Positions 1 to 31,865 of a DNA stretch of 32,856 nt are shown one piece after another (positions within the stretch are counted from its first letter, which is position 1; each line of letters opens with the position of its first letter). Source of the DNA: a virus. A program made the translations under genes and the position numbers. The DNA is taken from the IMG/VR virus record IMGVR_UViG_3300021961_005268, positions 1 through 32,856 of that record; one strand, given 5' to 3'. Below the pieces are notes generated by a model that was not told where the DNA came from, made no database searches, and saw only the letters and a list, made by a program, of their open reading frames with translations.

Positions 1-175
1 GGATGAGCGGGTTGTTGAGCAGCTTGACGGCATAGACGTTCGGGTGAGCGAAGCCTGCGTCTCTAGCTGCTGCGGTTTGCGTCATGTCCCGATGCAGATA
101 GTTATCGAGGAACTTCTGCTGCTGTGGTGTGAGGCGCTTTCGTCCATCAGGCAGTGGTTCTCCTACCTTAGGCAT
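1..175 (-). CDS. Terminase small subunit, 5' part (runs off left edge)
   Basis: Translating the minus strand from the ATG at 175-173 gives 58 residues that stay open to the window edge. After a short basic N-terminus comes LTPQQQKFLDNYL, then a TQTAAARDAGF stretch and KLLNNPLI. This is the usual opening of the Terminase_2 family: a 'Q.KF...YL' helix followed by a helix-turn-helix with 'T.AA..AG'. These proteins bind the packaging site of the concatemer and recruit the large subunit. The start overlaps the end of the upstream gene by 8 nt, so the two are probably translationally coupled. The catalytic large subunit should follow off the left edge. The family call rests only on the N-terminal part. 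Confidence 0.72.
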   Translation of the reverse strand, partial: MPKVGEPLPDGRKRLTPQQQKFLDNYLHRDMTQTAAARDAGFAHPNVYAVKLLNNPLI

Positions 176-806: not shown

Positions 807-886
807 TGTGTATCTCCGATGCTTGCTGGCGTTTCGGGTGCCATGGCGGTCGCTGCGTTTTGCCCTGCTTCGACTGCCGTTCTGGA

Positions 887-915
887 GTTATGGCATCTGT
901 GTTCGGCTACGTCAA
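887..915 (-). promoter_or_regulatory. Sigma70-type promoter for the terminase unit
   Basis: Read on the minus strand there is TTGACG (915-910), a 17-nt spacer and CATAAC (892-887). The -35 matches the consensus at five of six positions and the -10 at four of six. Transcription would start near 880 and run leftward into the gene starting at 806 and then the terminase. Confidence 0.5.
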
Positions 916-932
916 TCCCGTCCCCGGGACGA

Positions 933-964
933 GTAACCCCGGCCCTACGGCCTCCGGGGGTTAC
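933..964. repeat. Inverted repeat / hairpin
   Basis: GTAACCCC at 933-940 pairs with GGGGTTAC at 957-964. Inside, GGCC-CTAC-GGCC (941-952) can pair again, leaving a short bulge on the 3' side. A perfect palindrome, GTCCCCGGGAC, lies directly to the left at 920-930. Confidence 0.6.
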
Positions 965-996
965 ATCCCTAATAGCCCATTAAGGGCTAGGGATGT
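963..996. repeat. Second inverted repeat / hairpin
   Basis: ACATCCCT at 963-970 pairs with AGGGATGT at 989-996. The pairing continues with AGCCC against GGGCT around an ATTAA loop, with a 3-nt bulge on the left arm. This gives about 13 base pairs and abuts the preceding hairpin. The right arm is followed by GGGTGTT, so GATGTAGGGTGTT (992-1004) repeats a 13-mer found inside the coding sequence at 339-351. Confidence 0.6.
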
Positions 997-1028
997 AGGG
1001 TGTTGGAATGAAAAAAATTCTCAAAAAT

Positions 1029-1044
1029 CCCGAACGTTTTCGGG
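1029..1044 (-). terminator. Possible minus-strand intrinsic terminator
   Basis: CCCGAA (1029-1034) and TTCGGG (1039-1044) form a perfect 6-bp stem with a 4-nt loop. Read on the minus strand the stem is followed by ATTTTTG and then a run of seven T. It could stop leftward transcription entering the control region, but the stem is short. Confidence 0.35.
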
Positions 1045-1045
1045 C

Positions 1046-1229
1046 ACATGGGCCTTCTGTATCAGCGTTCCATTGTTCTGGATTCCAACCGTTTTAACTG
1101 TTTCTGTTCAGTGACTTACGAAAAAAAATAGTTTCGTCCCGATTAAAACGTGCACCTTCATGCGGTTGCTGGCCTATCATTTTTTTGGGGCACATGTAGG
1201 AAAAACAACGACATGACCCTTCTGTATCA
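1046..1229 (+). repeat. Imperfect direct repeat pair
   Basis: ACATGGGCCTTCTGTATCA (1046-1064) and ACATGACCCTTCTGTATCA (1211-1229) match at 17 of 19 positions. They lie 165 nt apart in the same orientation. Each is associated with a nearby GGGCACATG (1042-1050 and 1188-1196). They may be binding sites for a phage regulator or initiator. Confidence 0.55.
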
Positions 1230-1233
1230 ACTC

Positions 1234-1263
1234 CCTACATATCGCTAAAACGGAATATGTAGG
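1234..1263. promoter_or_regulatory. Inverted repeat just upstream of the early promoter
   Basis: CCTACATAT (1234-1242) and ATATGTAGG (1255-1263) are perfect 9-nt inverted arms separated by 12 nt. The right arm ends 14 nt before the -35 box at 1278, a typical place for an activator or repressor site. ATGTAGG also occurs at 993-999 and 1194-1200, and a full CCTACATGTAGG palindrome occurs at 28509-28520. Confidence 0.5.
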
Positions 1264-1277
1264 CCCTCCAGACCCCC

Positions 1278-1306
1278 TTGACATGCTCATTTCGTGCCCG
1301 TAGTAT
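1278..1306 (+). promoter_or_regulatory. Strong sigma70-type early promoter
   Basis: A perfect TTGACA (1278-1283) is followed by a 17-nt spacer and TAGTAT (1301-1306, four of six consensus positions). The expected start site is near 1313. A leader with CTAGCA (1325-1330) and AGGAG (1337-1341) leads into the ATG at 1348. It resembles a phage early promoter read by host RNA polymerase. Confidence 0.7.
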
Positions 1307-1347
1307 GCCCATGTCTTGACGATTCTAGCAGACGACAGGAGACACCG

Positions 1348-1524
1348 ATGCGACAACGTGACGCAGGTAAAACCTTCAAAAAGTGCGAGGAGTGTGACGG
1401 CACAGGGGAGGTTGAGGTTGAGTATGTCCGTGGTTCTGGCCCCAACGCTGACTTGGCGTATCGCTTGGACGTATGTGAGGAGTGCTGGGGTTGTGGGGAG
1501 GTAGAGTGTGATGGCGACGCATGA
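1348..1524 (+). CDS. Small DnaJ-type zinc-finger protein
   Basis: A 58-aa product is read from the ATG at 1348, which has AGGAG six nucleotides upstream; an in-frame start at 1294 would lie inside the promoter and is rejected. Two cysteine motifs, CEECDGTGE and CEECWGCGE, match the CxxCxGxG repeats of the DnaJ central domain and would bind one zinc ion. Phages often carry such free-standing modules, and their role is not settled. It is the first gene of the early unit and overlaps the next one by 14 nt. Confidence 0.75.
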   Translation: MRQRDAGKTFKKCEECDGTGEVEVEYVRGSGPNADLAYRLDVCEECWGCGEVECDGDA

Positions 1525-4085: not shown

Positions 4086-4832
4086 CTAGCTTCCCAACTG
4101 CTTGAACAGTTCGCTGATCTTGATGTCGTCTGCGTTGATGCGGGCGATGATTTTTTCTGCGTCTCGCGGTGCGTGACGGAATGACAGTCTGAGGATGTCC
4201 ATCCAGTTGACGTTGTTGCGTGATCTGGTTTCTTCGATCTGGTTGATGATGAGTTTGCGACGCAGGTTTTGCGCGCGTTCGATTGCGAGTAGGCGTGGGA
4301 TTTCTATGTGGATGTGGCTGTCCCACCCGGAGAAATGTTCGGGAAGATCTGAGACGCGGTGGTAGGTTCCCCGTCCAGACTGTGGGAGAAGGTAGTATGA
4401 TCTGTTAATGATGCGGTCGATATGGTCTTCTAGCATCAAGTGCCCTTGGACGACGAGGCTATTGTAGGTTTGCTCGAAGGTTGATTCTCCATCTTTGAAG
4501 TATCTTCGGCGCTTAGCGATGAATGGCCCTGTGTCGATGCCTTCGTCGATTTTGTGGATGGTCACGCCGGATGGTGTGCCGTCGTAGTGGGCCCAGAAGT
4601 TCGGGTGTGCGCCCCTGTTGAGCGGCAGGAGTGACATGTGGACGTTGAAGACGTCGCACTTTGCGGTGTCTAGCACGGCTTTAGGGATGATGTGGCGATA
4701 GCCGAAGCTGATGATGACGCTGTAGGGAGACAGGTCTGTTACTGGATGCGTGACTGTGACTGTCTCGTATCCTTTGGAATTGAGGAGTGGCGCGATTTTG
4801 AAGGCCTCTTGGCCGAGGAGGAGGGCTATCAT
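4086..4832 (-). CDS. Formyltransferase acting on an amino sugar (likely)
   Basis: A 248-aa product starting at the ATG that overlaps the upstream stop (ATGA); a start at 4847 is possible. It has the methionyl-tRNA formyltransferase/GART fold signature: NVHMSLLPLNRG with N63 and H65, and the GIDTGPFI loop with D100, giving the Asn-His-Asp triad that uses N10-formyltetrahydrofolate. It lacks the length and C-terminal OB fold of Fmt, so tRNA is an unlikely substrate. Sugar N-formyltransferases of the VioF/FdtF type have this size. As last gene of the pseudaminic-acid unit it most likely formylates the 4-amino group made by PseC, the role PseH fills by acetylation elsewhere. The substrate is inferred from context. 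Confidence 0.72.
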   Translation of the reverse strand: MIALLLGQEAFKIAPLLNSKGYETVTVTHPVTDLSPYSVIISFGYRHIIPKAVLDTAKCDVFNVHMSLLPLNRGAHPNFWAHYDGTPSGVTIHKIDEGIDTGPFIAKRRRYFKDGESTFEQTYNSLVVQGHLMLEDHIDRIINRSYYLLPQSGRGTYHRVSDLPEHFSGWDSHIHIEIPRLLAIERAQNLRRKLIINQIEETRSRNNVNWMDILRLSFRHAPRDAEKIIARINADDIKISELFKQLGS

Positions 4833-5848
4833 TTGATGTGTTCCCATGTGACGGGTGTGTTTGGTTGCGCGTCTTTCTTGGCTTTGGTGCCTTCGACGAG
4901 CCAGTCTAGGTGGGGTGGCAGGCCGTATCCGGGTCTGACGCTACGGAAATGTTCGGCTGTGATGGTCTCGCCTGCGGAGACTGGTTTGACGAAATAGAGG
5001 GATCTGCGGAAGACTCTGCTTCCTGCTTCCTCTGGTTTGTCCTCGAAGCTGTAGTGGAGTGCGCTTGCTGTGTCGTCGAGATCTTTCCGCAGGGCTGCGA
5101 GTTGTTCGGGTGTGATGGAGAAGTGATCGTCTGGCCCATGGCCGTTGGGGTCGAGGGTGACGTGCTTCTCGATGTATTGTGCGCCGAGGGCAGTCGCTGC
5201 GATGGCTGCTGTGTTGTTCATGGTGTGGTCGGACAGGCCGATGGTGCAGCGAAAGCGACTTGAAAGCTCTTTGATGTTCAGGAGGTAGGAATGTTCGGGT
5301 TGCGCTGGGTATGCGGAGATGCAGTGCATGAGCACGATCTCTTGCGTGTTGCCGAGCTTTGTCCAGTTTGGCTGGGTGCTTTTGACTGTGTTAACGGCGC
5401 GTTCGATATCTGCGAGTGATGCCATGCCAGTTGAGATGAACATGGGCTTCAGGGTTCTGGCAGCGTAGGAGATGAGTGTTGTGTCTGTGATCTCGAAGGA
5501 CGCGATCTTGTAGGCTGGGCAGTCGAGATCGCGGAGGATATCGACGGATGACTTGTCGAATACGGAGGCGAACAAGTTGATCTTGTTCTTGCGTGCGAAG
5601 TCGAAGAGTTCGGGCATCCACCGGAGAGGTGTGTGGGCCTCGGTGTAGAGGTCAAAAAGGTTAACGGATCTGCCTCTCCAGTTAACCTTGAAGTCTGGTG
5701 TGTCTGCTTTGAGTGTGATGGTATCAGGTGTGTAGGCTTGGAGCTTCACCATATCTGCGCCGTTTATGGCGCACTGGATGATGAGTTCCTTTGCGCGATT
5801 GATTTCGCCGCGATGGTTGCCTGAGATTTCTGCGATGATCTTTACCAT
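4829..5848 (-). CDS. pseI: Pseudaminic acid synthase PseI (NeuB family)
   Basis: A 339-aa product, the normal family length. It condenses phosphoenolpyruvate with a 6-deoxy diacylamino hexose to make pseudaminic acid. The NeuB barrel spans about residues 3-250, with IAEISGNHRGEINRA at the start, VKLQAYTPDTITL, and PAYKIASFEITD followed by ISTGMAS. A SAF/antifreeze-like domain covers about 275-339 (FVKPVSAGETITAEHF). ISGNH and the LFDLYTEAHTP segment favour PseI over sialic or legionaminic synthases. The start overlaps the PseF stop by 7 nt, and the stop overlaps the formyltransferase start. Confidence 0.85.
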   Translation of the reverse strand: MVKIIAEISGNHRGEINRAKELIIQCAINGADMVKLQAYTPDTITLKADTPDFKVNWRGRSVNLFDLYTEAHTPLRWMPELFDFARKNKINLFASVFDKSSVDILRDLDCPAYKIASFEITDTTLISYAARTLKPMFISTGMASLADIERAVNTVKSTQPNWTKLGNTQEIVLMHCISAYPAQPEHSYLLNIKELSSRFRCTIGLSDHTMNNTAAIAATALGAQYIEKHVTLDPNGHGPDDHFSITPEQLAALRKDLDDTASALHYSFEDKPEEAGSRVFRRSLYFVKPVSAGETITAEHFRSVRPGYGLPPHLDWLVEGTKAKKDAQPNTPVTWEHIK

Positions 5849-6513
5849 GTCGAGAGCAGTGCCTCTGCTGCGTTCCAGTCTGCTGGTTCGTCGATGTCGA
5901 TGGTGTGCTTGGGCATGATGTAGGCTTTGGTGTGGACGCTGATGATAGGCGTCTCGGAGAGCCAGATGTGTGCTGCTGCCCAGTAGAATTGGCCTGCATC
6001 GTGGTAGGACTTTGCCATGTCTTGGGTGCGCTGGCTCATGGCTGCGGGGCTTCTCGGCATGACATGGTTGTCTTTCATAAGGTGCAGCGAGCGTTCGATT
6101 GGGTGTGCGTATTCGACTGCTGCCATGATGAAGGCTGCGTCATTGGACGACAGGAGGAGTTTGTGACTGCCGATGAGATGTTGCGGCTTGGTGAAGACGG
6201 CTGTGGGGTAGAGGCAGCAGACGGGTTCGAGGTGCTGACAGCCGACTTCTTCGATGGCGTGTGCGATGACGGTCTTGGTTGAGGTGTTGTCGTCGCACAG
6301 ATGTTCGGGCCTGAGGAGGTATGGGATGTCGTTGTCCCTTGCGATGTCGATAGCTTTGGTGTCGTCGGTCGTGACGATGACGTCGTCGAAGAGGCCTGAC
6401 TTCTTTGCGCTATGGATGACGATGTTGAGGATTGGAGTGTCGATGAAGGTTGCGGTGTTCTTGCCCGGGATGCGCTTGGAGCCTGCGCGTGCTGGGATGA
6501 TGCAGATTGTCAT
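5842..6513 (-). CDS. pseF: CMP-pseudaminic acid synthetase PseF
   Basis: A 223-aa cytidylyltransferase that would couple CTP to the nonulosonic acid made by PseI, giving the CMP-sugar donor for a glycosyltransferase. The N-terminal IPARAGSKRIPGKN is the nucleotide-binding signature of the NeuA/KdsB/PseF family. The later stretches VIVTTDDTKAIDIARDNDI and DIDEPADW also match. It overlaps PseC by 4 nt (ATGA) and PseI by 7 nt. The assignment to PseF rather than NeuA rests partly on the neighbours. Confidence 0.83.
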   Translation of the reverse strand: MTICIIPARAGSKRIPGKNTATFIDTPILNIVIHSAKKSGLFDDVIVTTDDTKAIDIARDNDIPYLLRPEHLCDDNTSTKTVIAHAIEEVGCQHLEPVCCLYPTAVFTKPQHLIGSHKLLLSSNDAAFIMAAVEYAHPIERSLHLMKDNHVMPRSPAAMSQRTQDMAKSYHDAGQFYWAAAHIWLSETPIISVHTKAYIMPKHTIDIDEPADWNAAEALLSTW

Positions 6514-7595
6514 GTGTTGGCCTTTACGATGCTGATGACTTCTTCTTGTTCTTGGTGGGTGAGTTGTTGGTGGAGTGGCAGGCTGACGGCTTCCCTGTAG
6601 TAGAGTTCTGCTTCTGGGCAGATGCCTCGTTTGAAGCCCAGTTTCTCGTGGTAGTAGTTGTGGAAGTAGACGGGGATGTAGTGTATCGGCGAGTGGTATC
6701 CGGCTATTACGAGTGCTTCTCTGATGTCGTCTGAGTTCTCGTGACGGATGATGTGCAGATGGTGCGATCTTTCTGAGTCGAGCCTTATGGCTTGGTGCCT
6801 TACGTTGGGCAGTTCATCCATGTAGCGTGTGGCGAGATCGCTTCTTGTTTCGATGAAGCGTCGCAGTTTTTTGAGTTGCGATGAGCCGAGTGCCGCTGCG
6901 AGATCTGTCATGCGGTAGTTGTGGCCTAGACGATACTGATGTCCGTTACGCATGCCATGGCTTCGGAACATGCGCATTTCGTCTGCCACATGCTTGATGT
7001 TGGTGACTGCCATGCCTCCTTCGCCTGTGGTGATCGGTTTGACGGGATGAAAGCTGAAGACGGTGACGTCTGAGTAGCGTGAGCATCCGACTGGGGTTAG
7101 TGGCTTTTGCATGGAGCCTAAGGCGTGGGATGCGTCTTCGATAACGCGTGCGCCGACTGTTCTTGCGAACTCGTCGATGGCTGGCATGTTTGCTGGTTCG
7201 CCTGCCATGTGTGTGACGATGATGAAGTCGGGCGCGACTTTTGTCTTGTCCAGTTTGTCCCACAAGGCGATGGGGCACATGTTGTAGGTGTCTGGGTTGA
7301 TGTCCACGAAGTCCACAGTTGCGCCGCAGTAGAGAGCGCAGTTGGCTGTGGCTGCGAAGGTGATGGGGCTGACCCATACAACGTCCCACTGCTTCATGCC
7401 GAGGGCTTTGCAGGCAGCGTGAAGTGCGGAGGTTGCTGAGTTCATGGCGACGCCGAAGCGTGCATTCACGGCAGCGCAGACATCTTTCTCGAATTGTTCG
7501 ACTGCTGGCCCTTGGGTGAGCATAGGCGAGCGGAGGATCGAGGTGACGGCTTCGATGTCGTCTTCGTCGATCTGTTGACGGCTATAGGGTTTCAT
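6510..7595 (-). CDS. pseC: UDP-sugar aminotransferase PseC
   Basis: A 361-aa PLP enzyme of the DegT/DnrJ/EryC1/StrS family. It would transfer an amino group from glutamate to the 4-keto sugar made by PseB, giving UDP-4-amino-4,6-dideoxy-AltNAc. The opening PYSRQQIDEDDIEAV, with LTQGPAVEQFE just after, is characteristic of PseC. The PLP-binding lysine is K186 in SFHPVKPITTGEGGM. An EDASHALGS segment provides the cofactor-ring aspartate. It overlaps PseB by 14 nt. Confidence 0.85.
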   Translation of the reverse strand: MKPYSRQQIDEDDIEAVTSILRSPMLTQGPAVEQFEKDVCAAVNARFGVAMNSATSALHAACKALGMKQWDVVWVSPITFAATANCALYCGATVDFVDINPDTYNMCPIALWDKLDKTKVAPDFIIVTHMAGEPANMPAIDEFARTVGARVIEDASHALGSMQKPLTPVGCSRYSDVTVFSFHPVKPITTGEGGMAVTNIKHVADEMRMFRSHGMRNGHQYRLGHNYRMTDLAAALGSSQLKKLRRFIETRSDLATRYMDELPNVRHQAIRLDSERSHHLHIIRHENSDDIREALVIAGYHSPIHYIPVYFHNYYHEKLGFKRGICPEAELYYREAVSLPLHQQLTHQEQEEVISIVKANT

Positions 7596-8547
7596 GTGCG
7601 AGCCAGAGTTTGAGTTGTTCGGATGTCATCCAGTGCGGGTTCGTGTCGCTTGTGTAGGAGAAGGATGGTGAGACAGCGACGCCGTCCTTGATGCGTGTGG
7701 GATCTAGGTGCCAGTCGTAGATGGCTGGCAGGATCTTGAAGTAGTCTTGGTATTCGTAGGTGTATGGCGCGTCTTCGTGGCCAATCATTTGTTCGTGCAG
7801 CTTTTCGCCGGGCCGTGTGCCGATGATGTCGAAGGACGCTTCTGGCCGAATTGTTCGGGCTATCTCAACGACCTTCATGGATGGTATCTTGCGAACGTAG
7901 ATCTCGCCACCGATTGAGTCGTTGAGTGCGTGCATGACGAGATCTACCCCTTGTTCGAGGGTTATCATGAAGCGTGTCATGCGGATGTCTGTGATGGGGA
8001 TTTTGGTCCCTACGAAGGATTTGAAGAGGGGGATGACGGAGCCTCGTGAGCCCATGACGTTGCCGTAGCGCACGACGGAGAAGGTTGTGTTGCTGTAGGA
8101 GTTCGAGGCGATGAAGAGCTTGTCCGAGCAGAGCTTCGATGCGCCGTAGAGGTTGACGGGCGATGATGCCTTGTCGGTTGATAGGGCGACGACTTTCTTG
8201 ACGCCGCATGCTGTGGCTGCGTCGGCTACGTTCATCGCGCCGATGACGTTGGTCTTGATGCACTCGAAGGGATTGTATTCCGCTGACGGGACGATCTTCA
8301 TGGCTGCGGCATGGATAACGTAATCGACGCCGCGCATGGCAAGATGGAGACGCTCGCGGTCGCGAACGTCTCCGATGAAGTATTTGACCTGTGGGTGCTT
8401 CTTTGCCATTTCCCACTGCTTCATTTCGTCTCGCGAGTAGACGATGATGCGAGCGGGGTTGAGAGCGGACGCTGCCTTTACGAACGCTTGGCCGAAGGAG
8501 CCTGTGCCCCCTGTTATGAGAACGGTGGCATCAGTCAGCAGGGTCAT
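7582..8547 (-). CDS. pseB: UDP-GlcNAc 4,6-dehydratase (inverting) PseB
   Basis: A 321-aa short-chain dehydrogenase, first step of the pseudaminic-acid pathway. It converts UDP-GlcNAc to the 4-keto-6-deoxy L-arabino sugar. NADP-binding ITGGTGSFGQAF lies at 11-22, followed by VYSRDEMKQWEM, as in FlaA1/PseB enzymes. The catalytic set is D125-K126 in STDKASSP and Y134-x3-K138 in YGASK. Length is normal for PseB, without the membrane domain of the larger WbpM/CapD relatives. The ATG lies 17 nt inside the small upstream gene, so translation is probably coupled. Confidence 0.87.
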   Translation of the reverse strand: MTLLTDATVLITGGTGSFGQAFVKAASALNPARIIVYSRDEMKQWEMAKKHPQVKYFIGDVRDRERLHLAMRGVDYVIHAAAMKIVPSAEYNPFECIKTNVIGAMNVADAATACGVKKVVALSTDKASSPVNLYGASKLCSDKLFIASNSYSNTTFSVVRYGNVMGSRGSVIPLFKSFVGTKIPITDIRMTRFMITLEQGVDLVMHALNDSIGGEIYVRKIPSMKVVEIARTIRPEASFDIIGTRPGEKLHEQMIGHEDAPYTYEYQDYFKILPAIYDWHLDPTRIKDGVAVSPSFSYTSDTNPHWMTSEQLKLWLAHETL

Positions 8548-8940: not shown

Positions 8941-8991
8941 CTCCTATGTTGCTAGCATGGGAAACTTAGTAACTTATTCCACACAAGTCAA
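8941..8991 (-). promoter_or_regulatory. Promoter and leader of the DUF3846/Pse unit
   Basis: On the minus strand: TTGACT (8991-8986), 17 nt, TAAGTT (8968-8963, weak -10), then CTAGCAAC and AGGAGG before the ATG at 8934. The TGA inside TTGACT is the stop codon of the upstream Toprim-helicase gene. TGGAATAAGTT lies between the two boxes. The same arrangement occurs at 16473-16522. Confidence 0.5.
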
Positions 8992-11198
8992 ACGTTATCT
9001 CGTGCGGTCGTGGGCTGGTATTCACCGCGCGAGAGGGGCCCACCGGGGACGCCGAGGAACTTTGTTGCGCCGCTTGGGGTGAGGGCTTTGAGGATAACTT
9101 GCCCTGTGGAGAGGAGGTAGTCCAGTTCGGTCTTGATGGTGGACTTCGACCAAGGCTTGAGGGCGTTGATGAAGATGTGATCGTTGGACATGGTCTGGAT
9201 GACCTCGTGGACGCCGTTGCGGCCTGTCATCATGACTGCTTCGCCATTGTTCTCACGCAGTTCGATGAATCCGATGAGGGCGTTGCGGCGCATGTCTGTA
9301 TTGCCGCTGGCTGTTTGGGCTGCGAGCAGTTCGATGCTGCAATCCTTGAGTAGGCCTGTGTTCATGTCGCGGACGAAGTGCCGGATCTCGCGGTTGGCTG
9401 GGCCGTTGGATTTGACCACTGCGCCATCGAAGCAGATGTTGCGCGAGAACGGGATGTTGAGGAACTTGCAGAACTCTCGTGCGGTCTTCTCTTCGACCTG
9501 CCAGAGTGCGAAGGCAGCACGGACGCCATCGACGATGGCCGAGGTGCCACGGATCAGATTGCGGGCTTGTTCCGGGGTTGTGATTGGCTCGCTATCCTTG
9601 ATCTTTGCCATGTGATGGTTGACCATGACGGTAGCGCCGGTCTCGGTTGCCATCTGGGCGAGCATGCCCATGAACGCTGCGCCTGCCGCTGGATCTGCGT
9701 TGACATCTGCGTGAACGAAGGAAGCGAGCGGGTCTGCTACGAAGAGTGCGAGGTTCTCGATTTGCAGGATTTGTTCGTAGAGGCGAAGGAACTCCTCCCC
9801 CATGGCGTAGGAGTTATCGACCTTGACCATGATCGGAAAGACGCCGCCGAGGTTCGGCAGGGGGATGATGTAGAGGTTGTGCTCGAAGTTAAACCTGTCC
9901 CCGTTCGGGTCCAGACGCTCGATGCGGCGATGGATCTCGTCCTTGTCGTCCTCGGCGCAGAGAAGAACGACGTTCCCAAAGTGAGAGACTAGGCCACCGA
10001 AGGCGAACTGCATGGGCTTGCCTGATGCGATCTTCATGGCGAGATCGAGGGTCATCATGCCTTTGCCGCTATCGCCTGCGGCAGCGAAGACGACGGGGAC
10101 GCCGAGAGGCAGGGTGCTGTCGATCAAGAAGTGCTGTTCTGGCGCTGGGCCACGGAATTGTTCGGAGATCAGCAGCGAGTTGTCGAGGAGGTTGATGGGC
10201 TTCTTGGTTGCCTTGTTCGGCGCGTTGACGAAAGCCGCGATGTCGAAGCATTCTGAGATAGCGTCGGAGGCGTCCCACTTCTCTGGCTTGCCCCGTGGGG
10301 GCGTCAGCATGGTGATTGAGCGCGCACCGGCCCTTGCAGCGAGTTCCTGCACCAGCTTGGCGACCTTGGCCCCAGAGGCGTCGTTGTCTGGCCAAATGAT
10401 GAGTTCTTTGCCTTGGAGCGGCGAGAAGTCGTAGCTGGGCGCTGACTTGGGCGAGAGCATGCCTGCACCGCCGAGGGTGCATGTGGCGACGTAGCCGAGT
10501 TTGTTGAGGTCGTCGGCGCACTTCTCGCCTTCGACCCAGATGATGCGGTCGGCGGTATTGATGCCGGGCAGATTATAGAGCGGACGGATGTCTGGCATCT
10601 TCGGGTATGGGCTACCCTGAGAGAACTGCCGGAACTCTTTTTTTGGCTTGCCGTCAGAACCGAGGACGGGCTGTCCATCAGCGTCTCTGGCGATGTATCG
10701 CCGCACGATACAGATGATCTCGCCATCGACGGAGGAGTAGATATGTTCGCCATCGTGAGGCGTGTTGATGTCGATCTGCCGGGGAGCAGGCGGGGGAGAA
10801 GACGATACTGTCTCGGGGGGTCTGATGGGATTTTGAGGCGGGGCTACGCGAGGCGGTGCGACATCGCCGATGTAGGTTCTGTAGTGACTGACGACCTCTT
10901 GGAATGTCCATCCGCGTCCTTCCATGAGGACCTTGCAGATGCCGCCAATACCTTCGCCGGATGCGAAGTCTGAGCCCTGCATGAAGTGCGGGCTGTGCAT
11001 AGCGATGTCGATCTTGAGCGACTTACCGGGCTCTCCGTTGAAGGAGCCGATTGTAAACAGTTCACCGGTTCGCTTTCCGTTGGGGAAGGTTTCGAGAAGG
11101 TCTGAGAGTTGCACTGAGCGCGGCACACGCTCGCTGATTAGCTGGGCTAGGTTCTTTTCCCCGCTAGATCTTGTGTTGCCAAAGGGGATGATCGACAT
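8988..11198 (-). CDS. Toprim domain-RepA-type helicase fusion (primase/helicase)
   Basis: A 736-aa replication protein; the ATG at 11198 (MSIIPFGNTR) is chosen because residues upstream of it do not look like protein. A Pro-rich linker (about 115-140) follows an N-terminal domain. A Toprim-like domain follows, with E223 in WVEGEK and D271/D273 in WPDNDASG. A RecA-fold hexameric helicase of the AAA_25/RepA type has Walker A GDSGKG (375-380) and Walker B LFVADPL, then a VNHHMAK sensor segment. The Walker lysine is followed by G rather than S/T. I see no zinc-finger primase domain, so priming activity is uncertain. It ends the replication unit. Confidence 0.75.
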   Translation of the reverse strand: MSIIPFGNTRSSGEKNLAQLISERVPRSVQLSDLLETFPNGKRTGELFTIGSFNGEPGKSLKIDIAMHSPHFMQGSDFASGEGIGGICKVLMEGRGWTFQEVVSHYRTYIGDVAPPRVAPPQNPIRPPETVSSSPPPAPRQIDINTPHDGEHIYSSVDGEIICIVRRYIARDADGQPVLGSDGKPKKEFRQFSQGSPYPKMPDIRPLYNLPGINTADRIIWVEGEKCADDLNKLGYVATCTLGGAGMLSPKSAPSYDFSPLQGKELIIWPDNDASGAKVAKLVQELAARAGARSITMLTPPRGKPEKWDASDAISECFDIAAFVNAPNKATKKPINLLDNSLLISEQFRGPAPEQHFLIDSTLPLGVPVVFAAAGDSGKGMMTLDLAMKIASGKPMQFAFGGLVSHFGNVVLLCAEDDKDEIHRRIERLDPNGDRFNFEHNLYIIPLPNLGGVFPIMVKVDNSYAMGEEFLRLYEQILQIENLALFVADPLASFVHADVNADPAAGAAFMGMLAQMATETGATVMVNHHMAKIKDSEPITTPEQARNLIRGTSAIVDGVRAAFALWQVEEKTAREFCKFLNIPFSRNICFDGAVVKSNGPANREIRHFVRDMNTGLLKDCSIELLAAQTASGNTDMRRNALIGFIELRENNGEAVMMTGRNGVHEVIQTMSNDHIFINALKPWSKSTIKTELDYLLSTGQVILKALTPSGATKFLGVPGGPLSRGEYQPTTARDNV

Positions 11199-11234
11199 TA
11201 TATTGTGCTCACACGCTGACTTGGTTGGGTGACT

Positions 11235-11261
11235 GGCGGGGCTTAGGCCCTGCCTTTTTTT
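11235..11261 (+). terminator. Intrinsic terminator facing right
   Basis: GGCGGGGC (11235-11242), loop TTAG and GCCCTGCC (11247-11254) form an 8-bp stem with one G-T pair, followed by seven T (11255-11261). It acts on plus-strand transcription, although all genes around it are on the minus strand. It lies in the gap between the exonuclease stop and the Toprim-helicase start. Confidence 0.6.
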
Positions 11262-12048
11262 ATTGGCTATCCCAGCAAGTTTTCTGGAACTCGCACATGC
11301 GGCAGGCGAAGTAGTCTTGCGTCTGCGCAATGCGAGGCAGGATGTCATTGGCCTTTGAAGCGGTCAATATGTTTACCGCTCGGTCGCTGATGCGTTGGGC
11401 TAGTTCCGCATCGAAGGGGACGAGTTCGTAGTAGATCTCTGAGTTGTTCTTGTTGACGACAGTAAAGAGCGCCGGGTTCTCTGTCAGGTCCATGTAGGCT
11501 TGATAGATGGCGATCTGCGCTGCGTAGACTGGATTGGCCTTGGCGACACCATGTCGCACGAACTCGTTGAACTTCTTGTCACTGGCTGTCTTGTTCTCCC
11601 AGAGGCACGGGTAGCCGATGACGTTAGGACCGCCGCAGATCACGCCGTCTATGTGCCCTGCGATCTGGTCGTCAGCGATAGAGAAGCCGAACTGCTTGCC
11701 TTTCGAGTCTTGGGTTCTGAGATCGAAGCCTGCCATGCGCAGGACCTTGACCATCTCGTCTTCCAGAACATGGCCGAGCGCGAAGATCCGCAGGGTTTTT
11801 GCCGGGAACTTTTTGTCCTCGTCGATGGGAATGTCGAGATAGCGATATTGGATCTTGCGCGAGCATTCGTCGCCCAAGGAGGACGCGCCGATGTAAGCAC
11901 GTCTGGGTTTCTTTTCGTGGTCCGCGAGGATCGCGGCATCGACCAGAGCCGAGACTTGTTCGGCTCTTGGGTCGCTAGAACGGGATGCTTGAAGCTGGCC
12001 AAGTGCCAGTTGACTCAACGTAGGCGCGCTCGATGTCTGCGAGTCCAT
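11260..12048 (-). CDS. PD-(D/E)XK exonuclease with a Cas4/AddB-type Fe-S cluster
   Basis: A 262-aa nuclease. The start at 12048 has GAGG six nucleotides upstream; TTG 12060 and ATG 12054 are alternatives. The active site is D134 in AGHIDGVI and E151-N-K153 in LWENKTA, with a conserved helix GHVLEDEMVKVL before it. C62 in GDECSRK and a C-terminal CxxCx5C (C249, C252, C258) give four cysteines in the order seen in Cas4 and AddB, where they hold a 4Fe-4S cluster. With the Sak4-like ATPase and ssDNA-binding-type protein upstream it probably resects ends for recombination. It overlaps the preceding gene by 74 nt. Confidence 0.75.
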   Translation of the reverse strand: MDSQTSSAPTLSQLALGQLQASRSSDPRAEQVSALVDAAILADHEKKPRRAYIGASSLGDECSRKIQYRYLDIPIDEDKKFPAKTLRIFALGHVLEDEMVKVLRMAGFDLRTQDSKGKQFGFSIADDQIAGHIDGVICGGPNVIGYPCLWENKTASDKKFNEFVRHGVAKANPVYAAQIAIYQAYMDLTENPALFTVVNKNNSEIYYELVPFDAELAQRISDRAVNILTASKANDILPRIAQTQDYFACRMCEFQKTCWDSQ

Positions 12049-16911: not shown

Positions 16912-17097
16912 ATGAAAACCAAGTTTAAGTCCGTGGGTCTGGAGATACAAGCCTACGAGAAGCTCAAGGAGCTTGCAGAGCTTGATCGCCGCAGCATCGG
17001 GCGAGAGCTTGCCTTCCTCGTGGACACGCTGCACGCGGAGCGGATGACCAAGAAGCCTGTCCGCGCCCGCGTTGGTCTTGCAGCCGTCAGCGATTAA
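16912..17097 (+). CDS. Ribbon-helix-helix regulator, alone on the plus strand
   Basis: A 61-aa basic product with GAGGAA before its ATG. A strand (FKSVGLEI) precedes two helices (AYEKLKELAELD and IGRELAFLVDTLHA), as in CopG/Arc-type RHH proteins. It is flanked on both sides by minus-strand genes: it starts 24 nt from the DUF1064 start and overlaps the end of the 975-aa virion gene by 11 nt. It sits exactly on the border between the virion and replication blocks, so it is a good candidate for controlling the replication unit. Confidence 0.6.
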   Translation: MKTKFKSVGLEIQAYEKLKELAELDRRSIGRELAFLVDTLHAERMTKKPVRARVGLAAVSD

Positions 17098-28508: not shown

Positions 28509-28520
28509 CCTACATGTAGG
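28509..28520. repeat. CCTACATGTAGG palindrome at the end of the HldD gene
   Basis: A perfect 12-nt palindrome spans the stop codon region of the HldD-like gene. It matches the arms of the inverted repeat upstream of the early promoter (1234-1263) and may be an operator for the same regulator. Confidence 0.5.
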
Positions 28521-29250
28521 ACAGCGTTTTGGTCATGTCGGCACAGGTGTACCGCTGATAACCTTTCAATGTTGGCATTGGAACCTCCACGATCTCTGCT
28601 CCGGTCTCTTGCGCCACAGACCGCGCAACTTCCATAAAGGAAACCGCCGCGCCTGTTCCCAAGTTATACACGCCAGAAACGTCTAAGTCAAAGAAGGCTC
28701 TGTGAACTTCGATGACACGCTCGACAGGCACGAAGTCTCGCTTGATGTCTTTGCTCCCCTCAAAGATCTCGATCCTGCCGGTGGCCGCTGCCTGCCTGCG
28801 AAAGCGCGTAAATGGCGAGGCTTGGATCTTCTCTCCCTCATGCGGGCCATAGACGTTGAAGTAGCGGAACAATTGCACAGGCATCGGCCAGTCGCGGTCG
28901 ATGGCATAAAGTTCGATGATCCTCTTCGAGATGGCGTAGTCGTTCATGGGGTTAGCCATCTCCTCGCGAAAGATCTTGCCATCTCCGTAGACAGCAGCGG
29001 TCGAGGCGATCTGGATCGGTATCCTACACAAGGCGCACTCGTGTAGGAGATTCTTGGTGAAGTTGACGTTCCGCTCTGCCAGCAGCTTCCAGTCTGTGCA
29101 TTGGGTGTCGGTGATCGCGCCGAGGTGGATGACGCGTGAGATGCCAGTGAGATCAACCTTGCCGTCGCCCCACTCGTAGCCTCGCGCGCCGGGGAAAGCG
29201 GCCATCATGTTCTTGCCGATGAAGCCCCTATGCCCAGTAATCAGGATCAT
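28510..29250 (-). CDS. HldD-like epimerase (ADP-heptose 6-epimerase family)
   Basis: A 246-aa short-chain dehydrogenase from the ATG at 29250 in an ATGA overlap with the kinase; host HldD is about 310 aa, so this is a short version. ITGHRGFIG (4-12) binds NADP, and S83-T84 with Y105-x3-K109 (YAISK) supply the catalytic set. The early IHLGAITDTQCTDW and late GYQRYTCADMTKT segments match HldD, which converts D,D- to L,D-heptose. Context with HldA- and HldC-like genes supports the call. A related GDP-sugar epimerase cannot be excluded. Confidence 0.72.
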   Translation of the reverse strand: MILITGHRGFIGKNMMAAFPGARGYEWGDGKVDLTGISRVIHLGAITDTQCTDWKLLAERNVNFTKNLLHECALCRIPIQIASTAAVYGDGKIFREEMANPMNDYAISKRIIELYAIDRDWPMPVQLFRYFNVYGPHEGEKIQASPFTRFRRQAAATGRIEIFEGSKDIKRDFVPVERVIEVHRAFFDLDVSGVYNLGTGAAVSFMEVARSVAQETGAEIVEVPMPTLKGYQRYTCADMTKTLSYM

Positions 29251-29984
29251 AGTTCTGGCACTTCCTTCGGATTCAAGGCGTAGGTTCCCACATGCGAACA
29301 AGTGATTGCGGCGCAGCGATTGGCAAAAAGCATTGAAGAAGTGATGTCCGAGCCCTTGGTCATGGCATAAGCAAACGCTGCGAGGAACGTATCCCCAGCC
29401 CCGCAGACATCGACCACATCGACAGGAAGACCAGCCGCAACGGTCGTCATGTTGTGAGTTGCCCCATCAGGGCCTCTCGTCACGATAAGGTTCGTGGGCC
29501 GCGATATGAGCGCCGCCTCTTCGGCAGCGTTGATCTTGAACCACGCTGGCCCAAGTCCGCCCAAGTTCCGCTTCTTCGTATCGATGAAGCAGTTCTTGAA
29601 TCGTGAAAGCCAAGCGATGTCATTCTCTGTCAGAAAGCCCTTATTGTAGTCAGACACGACCACCGCGTCGAAGTCGGCAGAATCATGCTGCCGCACATCC
29701 CTATAGGTCTTGTCAGGCACATGGTCATCGTCAACCCGTAGGAGTTGAGTGCCGGTCTTCTCGTCGATGTAGCGGGTTTTGACAGAGATGCCATTATCAG
29801 GCACCTCGGATATCACCTCGACGCCAAAGGAACGCAGGTTGGCCGCGACGTTGAGCGCCATGCCGACCCGGATCTCGCTTCCGTGCAACGTCAGCAGCGT
29901 GGCCGATGACTCCGGGTTGATCCGCTTGATCGTGCCGTAGCGGTAGACGTCGTGGCACGCATCTCCGATGACGAGGAACCTCAT
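29247..29984 (-). CDS. PfkB-family sugar kinase, HldA-like
   Basis: A 245-aa product. The N-terminal VIGDACHDVYRYGTIKR and PESSATLL, with GMALNVAANLRSFG, are the HldE kinase-domain pattern. VSDYNKGFL and the anion-hole loop VDVCGAGDTF, with catalytic D198, complete it. The host HldE kinase domain is about 315 residues, so this is a compact form. It would phosphorylate D-glycero-D-manno-heptose 7-phosphate at C1. In host bacteria this domain is usually fused to the nucleotidyltransferase; here the two are separate genes. It is coupled to both neighbours by 4-nt overlaps. Confidence 0.75.
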   Translation of the reverse strand: MRFLVIGDACHDVYRYGTIKRINPESSATLLTLHGSEIRVGMALNVAANLRSFGVEVISEVPDNGISVKTRYIDEKTGTQLLRVDDDHVPDKTYRDVRQHDSADFDAVVVSDYNKGFLTENDIAWLSRFKNCFIDTKKRNLGGLGPAWFKINAAEEAALISRPTNLIVTRGPDGATHNMTTVAAGLPVDVVDVCGAGDTFLAAFAYAMTKGSDITSSMLFANRCAAITCSHVGTYALNPKEVPEL

Positions 29985-30328
29985 ATCTGACCGTCCCCCG
30001 GCATGACGCGGTGGTTATCTTTCGGATCGTCGAAGGTCGATACCTCAGACACGGTGCCTGCCTCAATGCAGATCAGTTGGTGCGGCACGAGTGGTGGGTT
30101 GCGCCACACGGCGCCAGCGGTGAGTTCCTTCGTGCTGACCTTCGCCGTCTCGGTGTCGATCCAGCGCACCATGAAGCGACCGGAGCGCACGAACCACGTC
30201 TCGTCCTTCTTGGCATGGAAGTGCATCGAGCACTTGCCGCCAGCCTTAAAGACCAATTCCTTTCCACAGTACGTCGGCTCGTCTGCCCAGATCTTCTCGC
30301 AGCCCCAGCCCTTGTCCACGACACGCAT
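29981..30328 (-). CDS. Cupin, mannose-6-phosphate isomerase type II-like
   Basis: A 115-aa product from the ATG at 30328, with GGGAG upstream. The [20 protein letters not shown] opening and the cupin motif [13 protein letters not shown] match the C-terminal cupin of type II phosphomannose isomerases. Metal ligands would be H36, H38, E43 and H83. Free-standing versions lie in sugar-nucleotide gene clusters, including heptose ones, where they may isomerise or epimerise an intermediate. Its first 83 nt overlap the end of the HldC-like gene in another frame. The exact reaction is unknown. Confidence 0.7.
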
Positions 30329-30698
30329 CAATCACTCCCGTTGTTGATTTGCCTTCGACGTACGGGAGAATGACGACCTTGGCGAGTCCGTGCCCCACCA
30401 CGTCCTCGGCCCTGTAGTCTCCTCCCTTGGTGATGATATCAGGCTTCACGCGCTTGATAAGCCCAAGAGGCGTGTCCTCGTCGAAAATGTACACGGCATC
30501 GACGCAGCGCAACGCGAGCAGCATCCGCTTGCGGTCTTCCTGCGTGTTGATCGGTCGGGTGTCGCCCTTGAGCCGACGCACAGAGGCATCCGAGTTCAGG
30601 CCGACGACGAGGTATTTGCCCAGCGCGCGCGACTGCTCAAGGTAGGCGATGTGGCCGACATGCAGGATGTCGAAGCAGCCGTTGGTGAAAACTAGCAT
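30246..30698 (-). CDS. Heptose nucleotidyltransferase, HldC-like
   Basis: A 150-aa product, close to the usual 150-170 of stand-alone HldC/RfaE domain [15 protein letters not shown] (4-16) is the cytidylyltransferase signature with H13 and H16. [16 protein letters not shown] and [11 protein letters not shown] also match RfaE domain II, which makes ADP- (or GDP-) heptose from heptose 1-phosphate. The core ends near STTGVI. The last 20 or so residues are encoded where the cupin gene overlaps, so the original stop may have been lost. It is the first gene of the heptose cassette. Confidence 0.8.
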
Positions 30699-30728: not shown

Positions 30729-31865
30729 TTAATCTTCTGCAATTTCATGCGCAAAAAACCCGCCCGCAGCAAACTGATACCAATCAGTATTGGACCCAAC
30801 TTGAACAGGACTGCTTCTGTTTGTTGCATCTCCAAGGCCAAGTTGGCCACTGCTGTTATTCCCCCATGTCCACAAAGTGCCGTTAGTTTTGACCGCCCCA
30901 GATAGATTTCCGCCGCTACTTGCATAAAAATTAACAGCTGCGCTGCCGCCGCCAATTTTCTCCCAATTCGTCAATGCTCCTATTTGAACGGGGCTACTGC
31001 TATCTGTGGTAGTGCCATCGCCCAATTGTCCTCTGAAGTTTCTTCCCCAAGACCACAAAGTTCCATCTGTTTTTACTGCCATAGTATGATATGAACCACA
31101 GGCAACTGCCGCCCATGTCGTTAAGGCCCCAATTTGAACTGGGCTGCTACGATTGGTTGTGGTCCCATCACCAACTTGACCAAAAAAGTTACGTCCCCAA
31201 GCCCATAAAGTACCGTTTGTTTTTACGGCTGCGCAATGAAGATTTCCCATATCAACTTGCGCCCAGTCTGTAAGCGCACCCACCTGAACTGGGCTGCTAC
31301 TGTTGGTCGTGCTGTTATCTCCAAGTTGACCGTTATTATTGAGACCCCACGTCCATAAAGTGCCATCAGTTTTGATACAGCTAGAAGACTGACCACCCGC
31401 AGCGGATTGCAGCCAGTCTGTTAGTGCGCCTATTTGTGTAGCAACATTCGTAGTCCCACTAGGTAGCTGTCCAGAATTGCTATATCCCCAACCCCAAAGG
31501 GTGCCGTCTGTTTTTACCGCAAGAGAATGCCTCTGACCCGCAGAGCATTGGGCCCAATTAGTGGCTACGCCAACTTTTTGAGGGGTGTTAAACCCGCTTG
31601 GTGAGTTGCTTCCTTGGCCGCACTCTCCTTGAGTATTTCTCCCCCAAGCCCAGATAGTGCCATCTGTCCGAACAGCAACAGCATGTGTTCCTCCACCAGC
31701 TACTTGGTACCAATCTGTATCCACGCCAAGTTGAACTGGGCTGACTCTAGTGGTATTTGATCCATCCCCAACTTGGCCATAATTATTTAATCCTTGGCCA
31801 AAAATTATATAATTCTCTTCGGCGGCGACAAGAGATGCAAGCAACGCTTGAATAATACCACTCAT
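30729..31865 (-). CDS. Seven-bladed RCC1-like beta-propeller, likely tail spike or receptor-binding protein
   Basis: A 378-aa product with seven repeats of about 50 residues. Each has the pattern '(L/I)W.WG.N..GQ(L/V)GDG...SPVQ(I/V)G....W..V..G..H..AVKTDGT', as in RCC1/BNR-type propellers. The N-terminal ~15 residues (MSGIIQALLASLVAAEENY) differ and could be an attachment segment. The DNA is clearly more AT-rich than neighbouring genes. Propellers of this kind serve in host recognition or glycan binding in phage tails. The position near tail, glycan and lysis genes fits, but the role is inferred. It follows the small gene at 31867 by 1 nt. Confidence 0.75.
   Translation of the reverse strand: MSGIIQALLASLVAAEENYIIFGQGLNNYGQVGDGSNTTRVSPVQLGVDTDWYQVAGGGTHAVAVRTDGTIWAWGRNTQGECGQGSNSPSGFNTPQKVGVATNWAQCSAGQRHSLAVKTDGTLWGWGYSNSGQLPSGTTNVATQIGALTDWLQSAAGGQSSSCIKTDGTLWTWGLNNNGQLGDNSTTNSSSPVQVGALTDWAQVDMGNLHCAAVKTNGTLWAWGRNFFGQVGDGTTTNRSSPVQIGALTTWAAVACGSYHTMAVKTDGTLWSWGRNFRGQLGDGTTTDSSSPVQIGALTNWEKIGGGSAAVNFYASSGGNLSGAVKTNGTLWTWGNNSSGQLGLGDATNRSSPVQVGSNTDWYQFAAGGFFAHEIAED

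Follow-up and report, generated by a model that had tools for sequence, protein, structure and literature searches.

A non-coding interval of 541 nt (positions 807-1347) parts a leftward unit, made of gene 168-806 and the terminase small subunit gene (terS), from small early genes that run rightward, and the question is what such an interval does for the phage. An earlier note on this DNA had suggested replication initiation, DNA packaging or a transcription switch. We analysed the 32,856-nt IMG/VR virus record IMGVR_UViG_3300021961_005268 over its whole length, hereafter the window, which is a linear fragment. A circular genome was considered and rejected: the two ends join in frame by chance, and the joined protein would be half terminase and half sugar-transferase-like, as judged by eye.

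Layout, repeats and outward promoters

The terS gene (2-175, minus strand; phrog_51, E 5e-8, and relatives) is cut by the window end, leaving its N-terminal part. The terminase had rightly been named as a neighbour of the interval, although gene 168-806 intervenes. This first gene of the leftward unit (minus strand, 212 aa) has homologs at the equivalent position in loci L126, L139, L154 and L168; it is a tandem duplication of a domain of about 100 aa that is single in those homologs, and Pfam and PHROG searches with it gave no match. On the other side, the first early gene (1348-1524, plus strand) encodes a 58-aa Cys-rich (CxxCxGxG) protein, with related proteins in the early block of most relatives.

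Elsewhere in the window, the stretch 4086-8547 is a nonulosonic-acid-type sugar cluster in a phage, with Pfam matches to NeuB, a cytidylyltransferase, a DegT aminotransferase, a Polysacc_synt_2 dehydratase and a formyltransferase. Genes of epimerase, PfkB kinase and cytidylyltransferase-like type form a second sugar block (28510-30698), which hints at heptose activation. Next to it, 30729-31865 encodes a protein of a type uncommon in phages, with six RCC1 repeats (Pfam E 2e-68), which is perhaps a tail or surface protein.

Two outward promoters flank the repeats of the interval, one recognised by consensus and the other by homology as well. The rightward early promoter (1278-1306, plus strand; TTGACA-17-TAGTAT, 10/12 in the promoter scan) is a good sigma-70 match. 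The leftward one (887-915, minus strand; TTGACG at 910-915, 17-nt spacer, CATAAC at 887-892) is weaker and was missed by the scan; it was read from the sequence and has a counterpart at the equivalent position in L154, GGGATTGACG-N17-CATAGT. The suggested transcription switch is supported in that homologous outward promoters split the early plus-strand unit from the terS-side minus-strand unit in the window and in relatives. With two outward promoters between opposed units, the interval is, by its sequence, a divergent control region. The promoter at 1278-1306 would drive the early genes rightward, and that at 910-887 would drive gene 168-806 and terS leftward. The layout resembles the divergent early/late operator regions of phages, which also place repeats between two outward promoters, but a repressor-operator pair of the kind found there was not found here.

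Repeat search and inspection of the sequence recovered every repeat described in the earlier note. From left to right, the interval holds an inverted repeat with a stem of just 5 bp (CGTCC-CCG-GGACG, 919-931), followed by two hairpins detected by both repeat search and folding. Hairpin 2 (933-964) has 8-bp arms, GTAACCCC and GGGGTTAC (933-940/957-964), and hairpin 1 (962-997) has 10-bp arms, TACATCCCTA and TAGGGATGTA (962-971/988-997), with an inner AGCCC/GGGCT. A composite direct repeat follows on the plus strand, first as TTTTCGGGCACATGGGCCTTCTGTATCAGC (1037-1066) and again at 1183-1231 with both halves present and extra bases between them; the 19-nt cores (1046-1064 and 1211-1229) match at 17 of 19 positions, 165 nt apart. 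Last comes an inverted repeat with 9-bp arms, CCTACATAT and ATATGTAGG (1234-1242/1255-1263, in all 1234-1263), which contains two of the four copies of ATGTAGG in the interval (993, 1194, 1234, 1257).

This density exceeds chance. Among 300 dinucleotide shuffles, none had a 17/19 direct match, none had three inverted repeats whose arms reach 8 bp or more, and two had a perfect 10-bp arm. Elsewhere in the window, 58 stretches of 541 nt each fell short on all three measures. In folding, the 110-nt segment starting at 936 ranked third of 596 by z (-4.2). Compared with a 97%-identical sister (L002), positions 835-1033 and both 19-mer copies are free of substitutions, although a clean run of 200 nt also arose in 109 of 5000 random placements and is thus just mildly unusual. 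Since the cores of the composite repeats are intact in the sister while bases just outside them change, the composite repeats (1037-1066 and 1183-1231) resemble protein sites and are probably bound by a protein of the phage's own.

We considered whether the hairpins could instead belong to a structured RNA on the leftward transcript, either a 5' leader or a small RNA. The minus strand does fold strongly (z -3.0), but the fold of the plus strand is almost as strong, and an Rfam search gave no match. Because the leftward promoter starts left of the hairpins, these would lie outside both transcripts. We regard a role as RNA as very improbable. The hairpin block between the two starts is probably untranscribed and hence would act as DNA.

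The homologous site in relatives and its candidate reader

The primase-helicase gene of the window (8988-11348, minus strand; phrog_239, E 1e-28; AAA_25, E 1e-27), which we propose as the initiator, has hundreds of relatives in IMG/VR, and many of these records extend to terS. Upstream of terS they share one order: early genes running away, a promoter, an array, a hairpin pair, a TTGAC promoter and terS. The homology of the interval is anchored by L126, L139, L154 and L168, since these share the homolog of gene 168-806 between the region and terS. Closer relatives were sought with a hairpin pattern scan and a profile scan of the same gene, which returned just the sister and the distant L126/L139 group. 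A search for terS in the genome collection found no relative and a search of phage records found no DNA match to the window; the primase in phage records is at most about 40% identical, and one phage WO homolog of the primase-helicase is annotated as similar to RSF1010 RepA.

The double hairpin is conserved: 83 of 85 related loci have it, where shuffles predict 31 of 85, and its stem sequences vary among lineages. By position, hairpin 2 of the window is the equivalent of the relatives' hairpin of a G-run, ATATA and a C-run. The array consists of about 150 nt of 7-8 nt repeats with fixed geometry, one cluster per locus, and surpasses all shuffles in most relatives tested; that of L105, taken alone, is not significant. 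The repeat unit, or iteron, depends on the lineage: ACGTCAA, ACGTTAA, ACGGTAA, TCGTCAA, ACTCCAA/G, AGTCCAG, ACTTCAA, ACTTACC or TTGTCAC.

Iteron sequence covaries with one residue of the primase-helicase. For the C-terminal part of the window protein (8991-9413, minus strand), modelling predicts a winged helix (pLDDT 82) with the recognition helix STIKTEL. All 17 records whose iterons contain CG have Lys at the third residue of the helix motif T-[IVL]-X, whereas the 9 remaining records have G, I, L, R, N or D there. This position, found by searching after the fact, separates the two sets best of 764 single columns. On a tree of the helicase part, iteron and residue each change five times, and they change jointly in four of four supported independent pairs (4-5 independent switches; sign test p 0.125). 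The near pair G031/G041, with helicases 96% identical, illustrates this: ACGTCAA becomes ACTTCAA as Lys becomes Asn. Identity over the whole winged helix failed to separate pairs with the same iteron from pairs with different ones, and was dropped as proof of covariation because it does not discriminate.

The fold itself is predicted. Winged-helix proteins dominate the fold matches of the C-terminus and, alone, support the fold only; Foldseek gave no match at E<=0.001, and a search of the C-terminal sequence against solved structures gave nothing meaningful. The P4 origin-binding domain is absent among the fold matches shown, which is uninformative either way.

Two other DNA-binding families were tried as readers of the iterons and rejected. 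Proteins of the 16912 family are near-identical in G023 (TTGTCAC) and G024 (ACGTCAA), and those of the Fis-like HTH family 5 are near-identical across three iteron types; both are unlikely readers, because they stay the same while the iterons differ. The 16912-17097 product itself is a small ribbon-helix-helix-looking protein that many relatives keep, encoded opposite to the replication genes and preceded by its own promoter-like sequence; neither it nor the 3010 protein had a Pfam match. Both had been named for gel shift in the earlier note, and the C-terminus of the primase-helicase is the better binder candidate for the region. We consider the array of the relatives to be probably a replication-initiator binding site, on evidence that is good, not decisive. 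In these relatives the C-terminal winged helix would read the short repeats and the enzyme would be loaded there in the manner of P4 alpha.

Three known systems frame this proposal. In P4 alpha a C-terminal winged helix binds origin repeats, RSF1010 combines iterons with the short stem-loops ssiA and ssiB recognised by its primase, and pRN1-type replicons have a stem-loop without iterons and a replication protein with a C-terminal winged helix (PMC4234260). As in P4 alpha, primase and helicase are joined in one protein here (phrog_239 and AAA_25; Toprim at just E 0.08), a C-terminal winged helix is predicted, and the relatives of the window phage have short iterons. The helicase of P4 alpha is of the SF3 type, whereas the one here is RecA-like (AAA_25) and has no SF3 family match. 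Also unlike P4, the array of the relatives lies far from the primase gene, between the early and terS units and accompanied by hairpins, and the window phage is without a clear array. Iterons plus hairpins in the relatives recall the oriV of RSF1010 (IncQ), and by this analogy the conserved hairpin pair may, like the ssi hairpins, offer exposed sites for priming or assembly. RSF1010, however, uses three separate proteins with RepC as the iteron binder, and no RepC-like protein was recognised among the part of the window proteins scanned with Pfam and PHROG. The window version comes close to pRN1/BIP-1 in its modelled C-terminal winged helix, its large stem-loop and its lack of iterons, but pRN1-type proteins combine an archaeo-eukaryotic prim/pol with SF3 while the Pfam and PHROG matches in the window are of other types, and the pRN1/BIP-1 stem-loop sits behind the replication gene, unlike in the window.

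The window is an odd member of this set. An iteron array comparable to those of the relatives was searched for in its control region and no convincing one was found: its best 7-mer, ATGTAGG, has four copies and its best 6-mer, AAAACG, has five, compared with 5-9 in most relatives. The window helix has the Lys (STIKTEL), and a CG-containing site is therefore predicted. A 6-mer search of 1000-1280 restricted to CG gave four copies of AAAACG, equalled in 0 of 400 shuffles. Without that restriction the result weakens (5 of 400), and the sister, 97% identical, has lost one of the four copies. AAAACG stays a candidate iteron of the window. Hairpins and promoters persist in the window although its repeats are degenerate, so its site is probably a divergent or relict form of the initiator site of the relatives.

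A further motif, AAATTRTTCGG, is dispersed in the relatives, before terS and elsewhere (for example L109:4472, 5973 and 6622), and may be a shared regulatory site. In the window it is not above chance, and it is absent from 807-1347.

Terminase sites often lie near terS, and a packaging signal (cos or pac) in the interval would fit its closeness to that gene; we found no further support for it. In the window phage gene 168-806 stands between the region and terS, the motif upstream of the relatives' terS is the dispersed AAATTRTTCGG, and the changing iterons track the primase, whereas terS is well conserved. We regard packaging as very improbable here.

Strand asymmetry and the position of replication start

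Raw GC skew was dropped, being dominated by gene direction in relatives, and four-fold sites were used instead. At these sites the plus strand of the window is rich in G and T both to the left and to the right of 807-1347 and irrespective of gene direction, with a keto excess of +0.60 to the left (minus-strand genes), +0.38 in the plus-strand early genes and +0.62 in the minus-strand genes at 4086-8547. There is no sign change across the interval. The sister contig does show such a change, at a gene boundary at terS+3.3 kb, which is some 4 kb to the left of the interval and beyond the window; in five relatives the sharpest rise lies at terS+2.3 to +4.7 kb. The asymmetry is very strong, largely independent of orientation and decays from the switch point (window, G009, G021-G024); in all six genomes examined for this decay the switch point is 2.3-4.7 kb downstream of terS. 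G and T are enriched on the far side of the switch, which is the usual leading-strand signature, though another process that treats the strands differently could in principle produce it.

In the sister G001 (IMGVR_UViG_3300025687_004282, L181:7651-7862), seven GGGTCCCT repeats lie in one direction, several of them 18 nt apart. They are intergenic and coincide exactly with the sharp sign change (AT skew about -0.9 within a few kb), and are candidates for an origin or a late operator. Not every genome has GGGTCCC clusters at the switch: G021 and G009 have none, and the GGGTCCC sites of G023 overlap a promoter and may be operators.

Replication initiation at 807-1347, one of the options of the earlier note, has only homology to the relatives' arrays in its favour, and the window's want of a clear array and a skew switch elsewhere argue against it. 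That note had also counted skew placing the origin elsewhere among the signs against the idea, and the sign change some 4 kb to the left in the sister partly answers to this.

These results bear on a purely transcriptional account, under which the repeats are operators of a phage regulator that switches the early and late promoters, and replication starts near the asymmetry switch. The two flanking promoters, the constant sign across the interval, the sharp switch in the sister and in the five relatives, and the GGGTCCCT array at the switch point of the sister are all in keeping with it. On the other hand, the iterons of the relatives covary with the primase-helicase and not with the two DNA-binding families tested, and the GGGTCCC clusters are neither general nor, in G023, clearly other than operators. 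We consider this account possible, if unlikely. Two readings fit these data: forks start at the switch and the initiator binds the array upstream of terS as an element apart, or the array has a regulatory role only. P4 likewise has two separate sites, ori and crr.

Meaning for the phage group

The reading that we prefer, and hold with about even confidence, is that 807-1347 is a divergent early/late control region built around a conserved structured DNA element, whose homologous site is the binding site of the initiator in relatives. We further speculate, and think it rather doubtful as a whole, that in this uncultivated phage group the specificity of the winged helix has repeatedly switched together with the origin iterons, and that the window lineage has lost its iterons and keeps enlarged hairpins, with initiation moved, or measured, about 4 kb away.

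Should the covariation hold up, the group would supply a natural series of matched initiator and origin pairs, in which one residue of the recognition helix tracks one part of the iteron. Ideas on changes in origin specificity could be tested on such a series, and it would help origin prediction in phages known from metagenomes only. The window would then be an end member of the series, with its hairpins remaining and its repeats gone.
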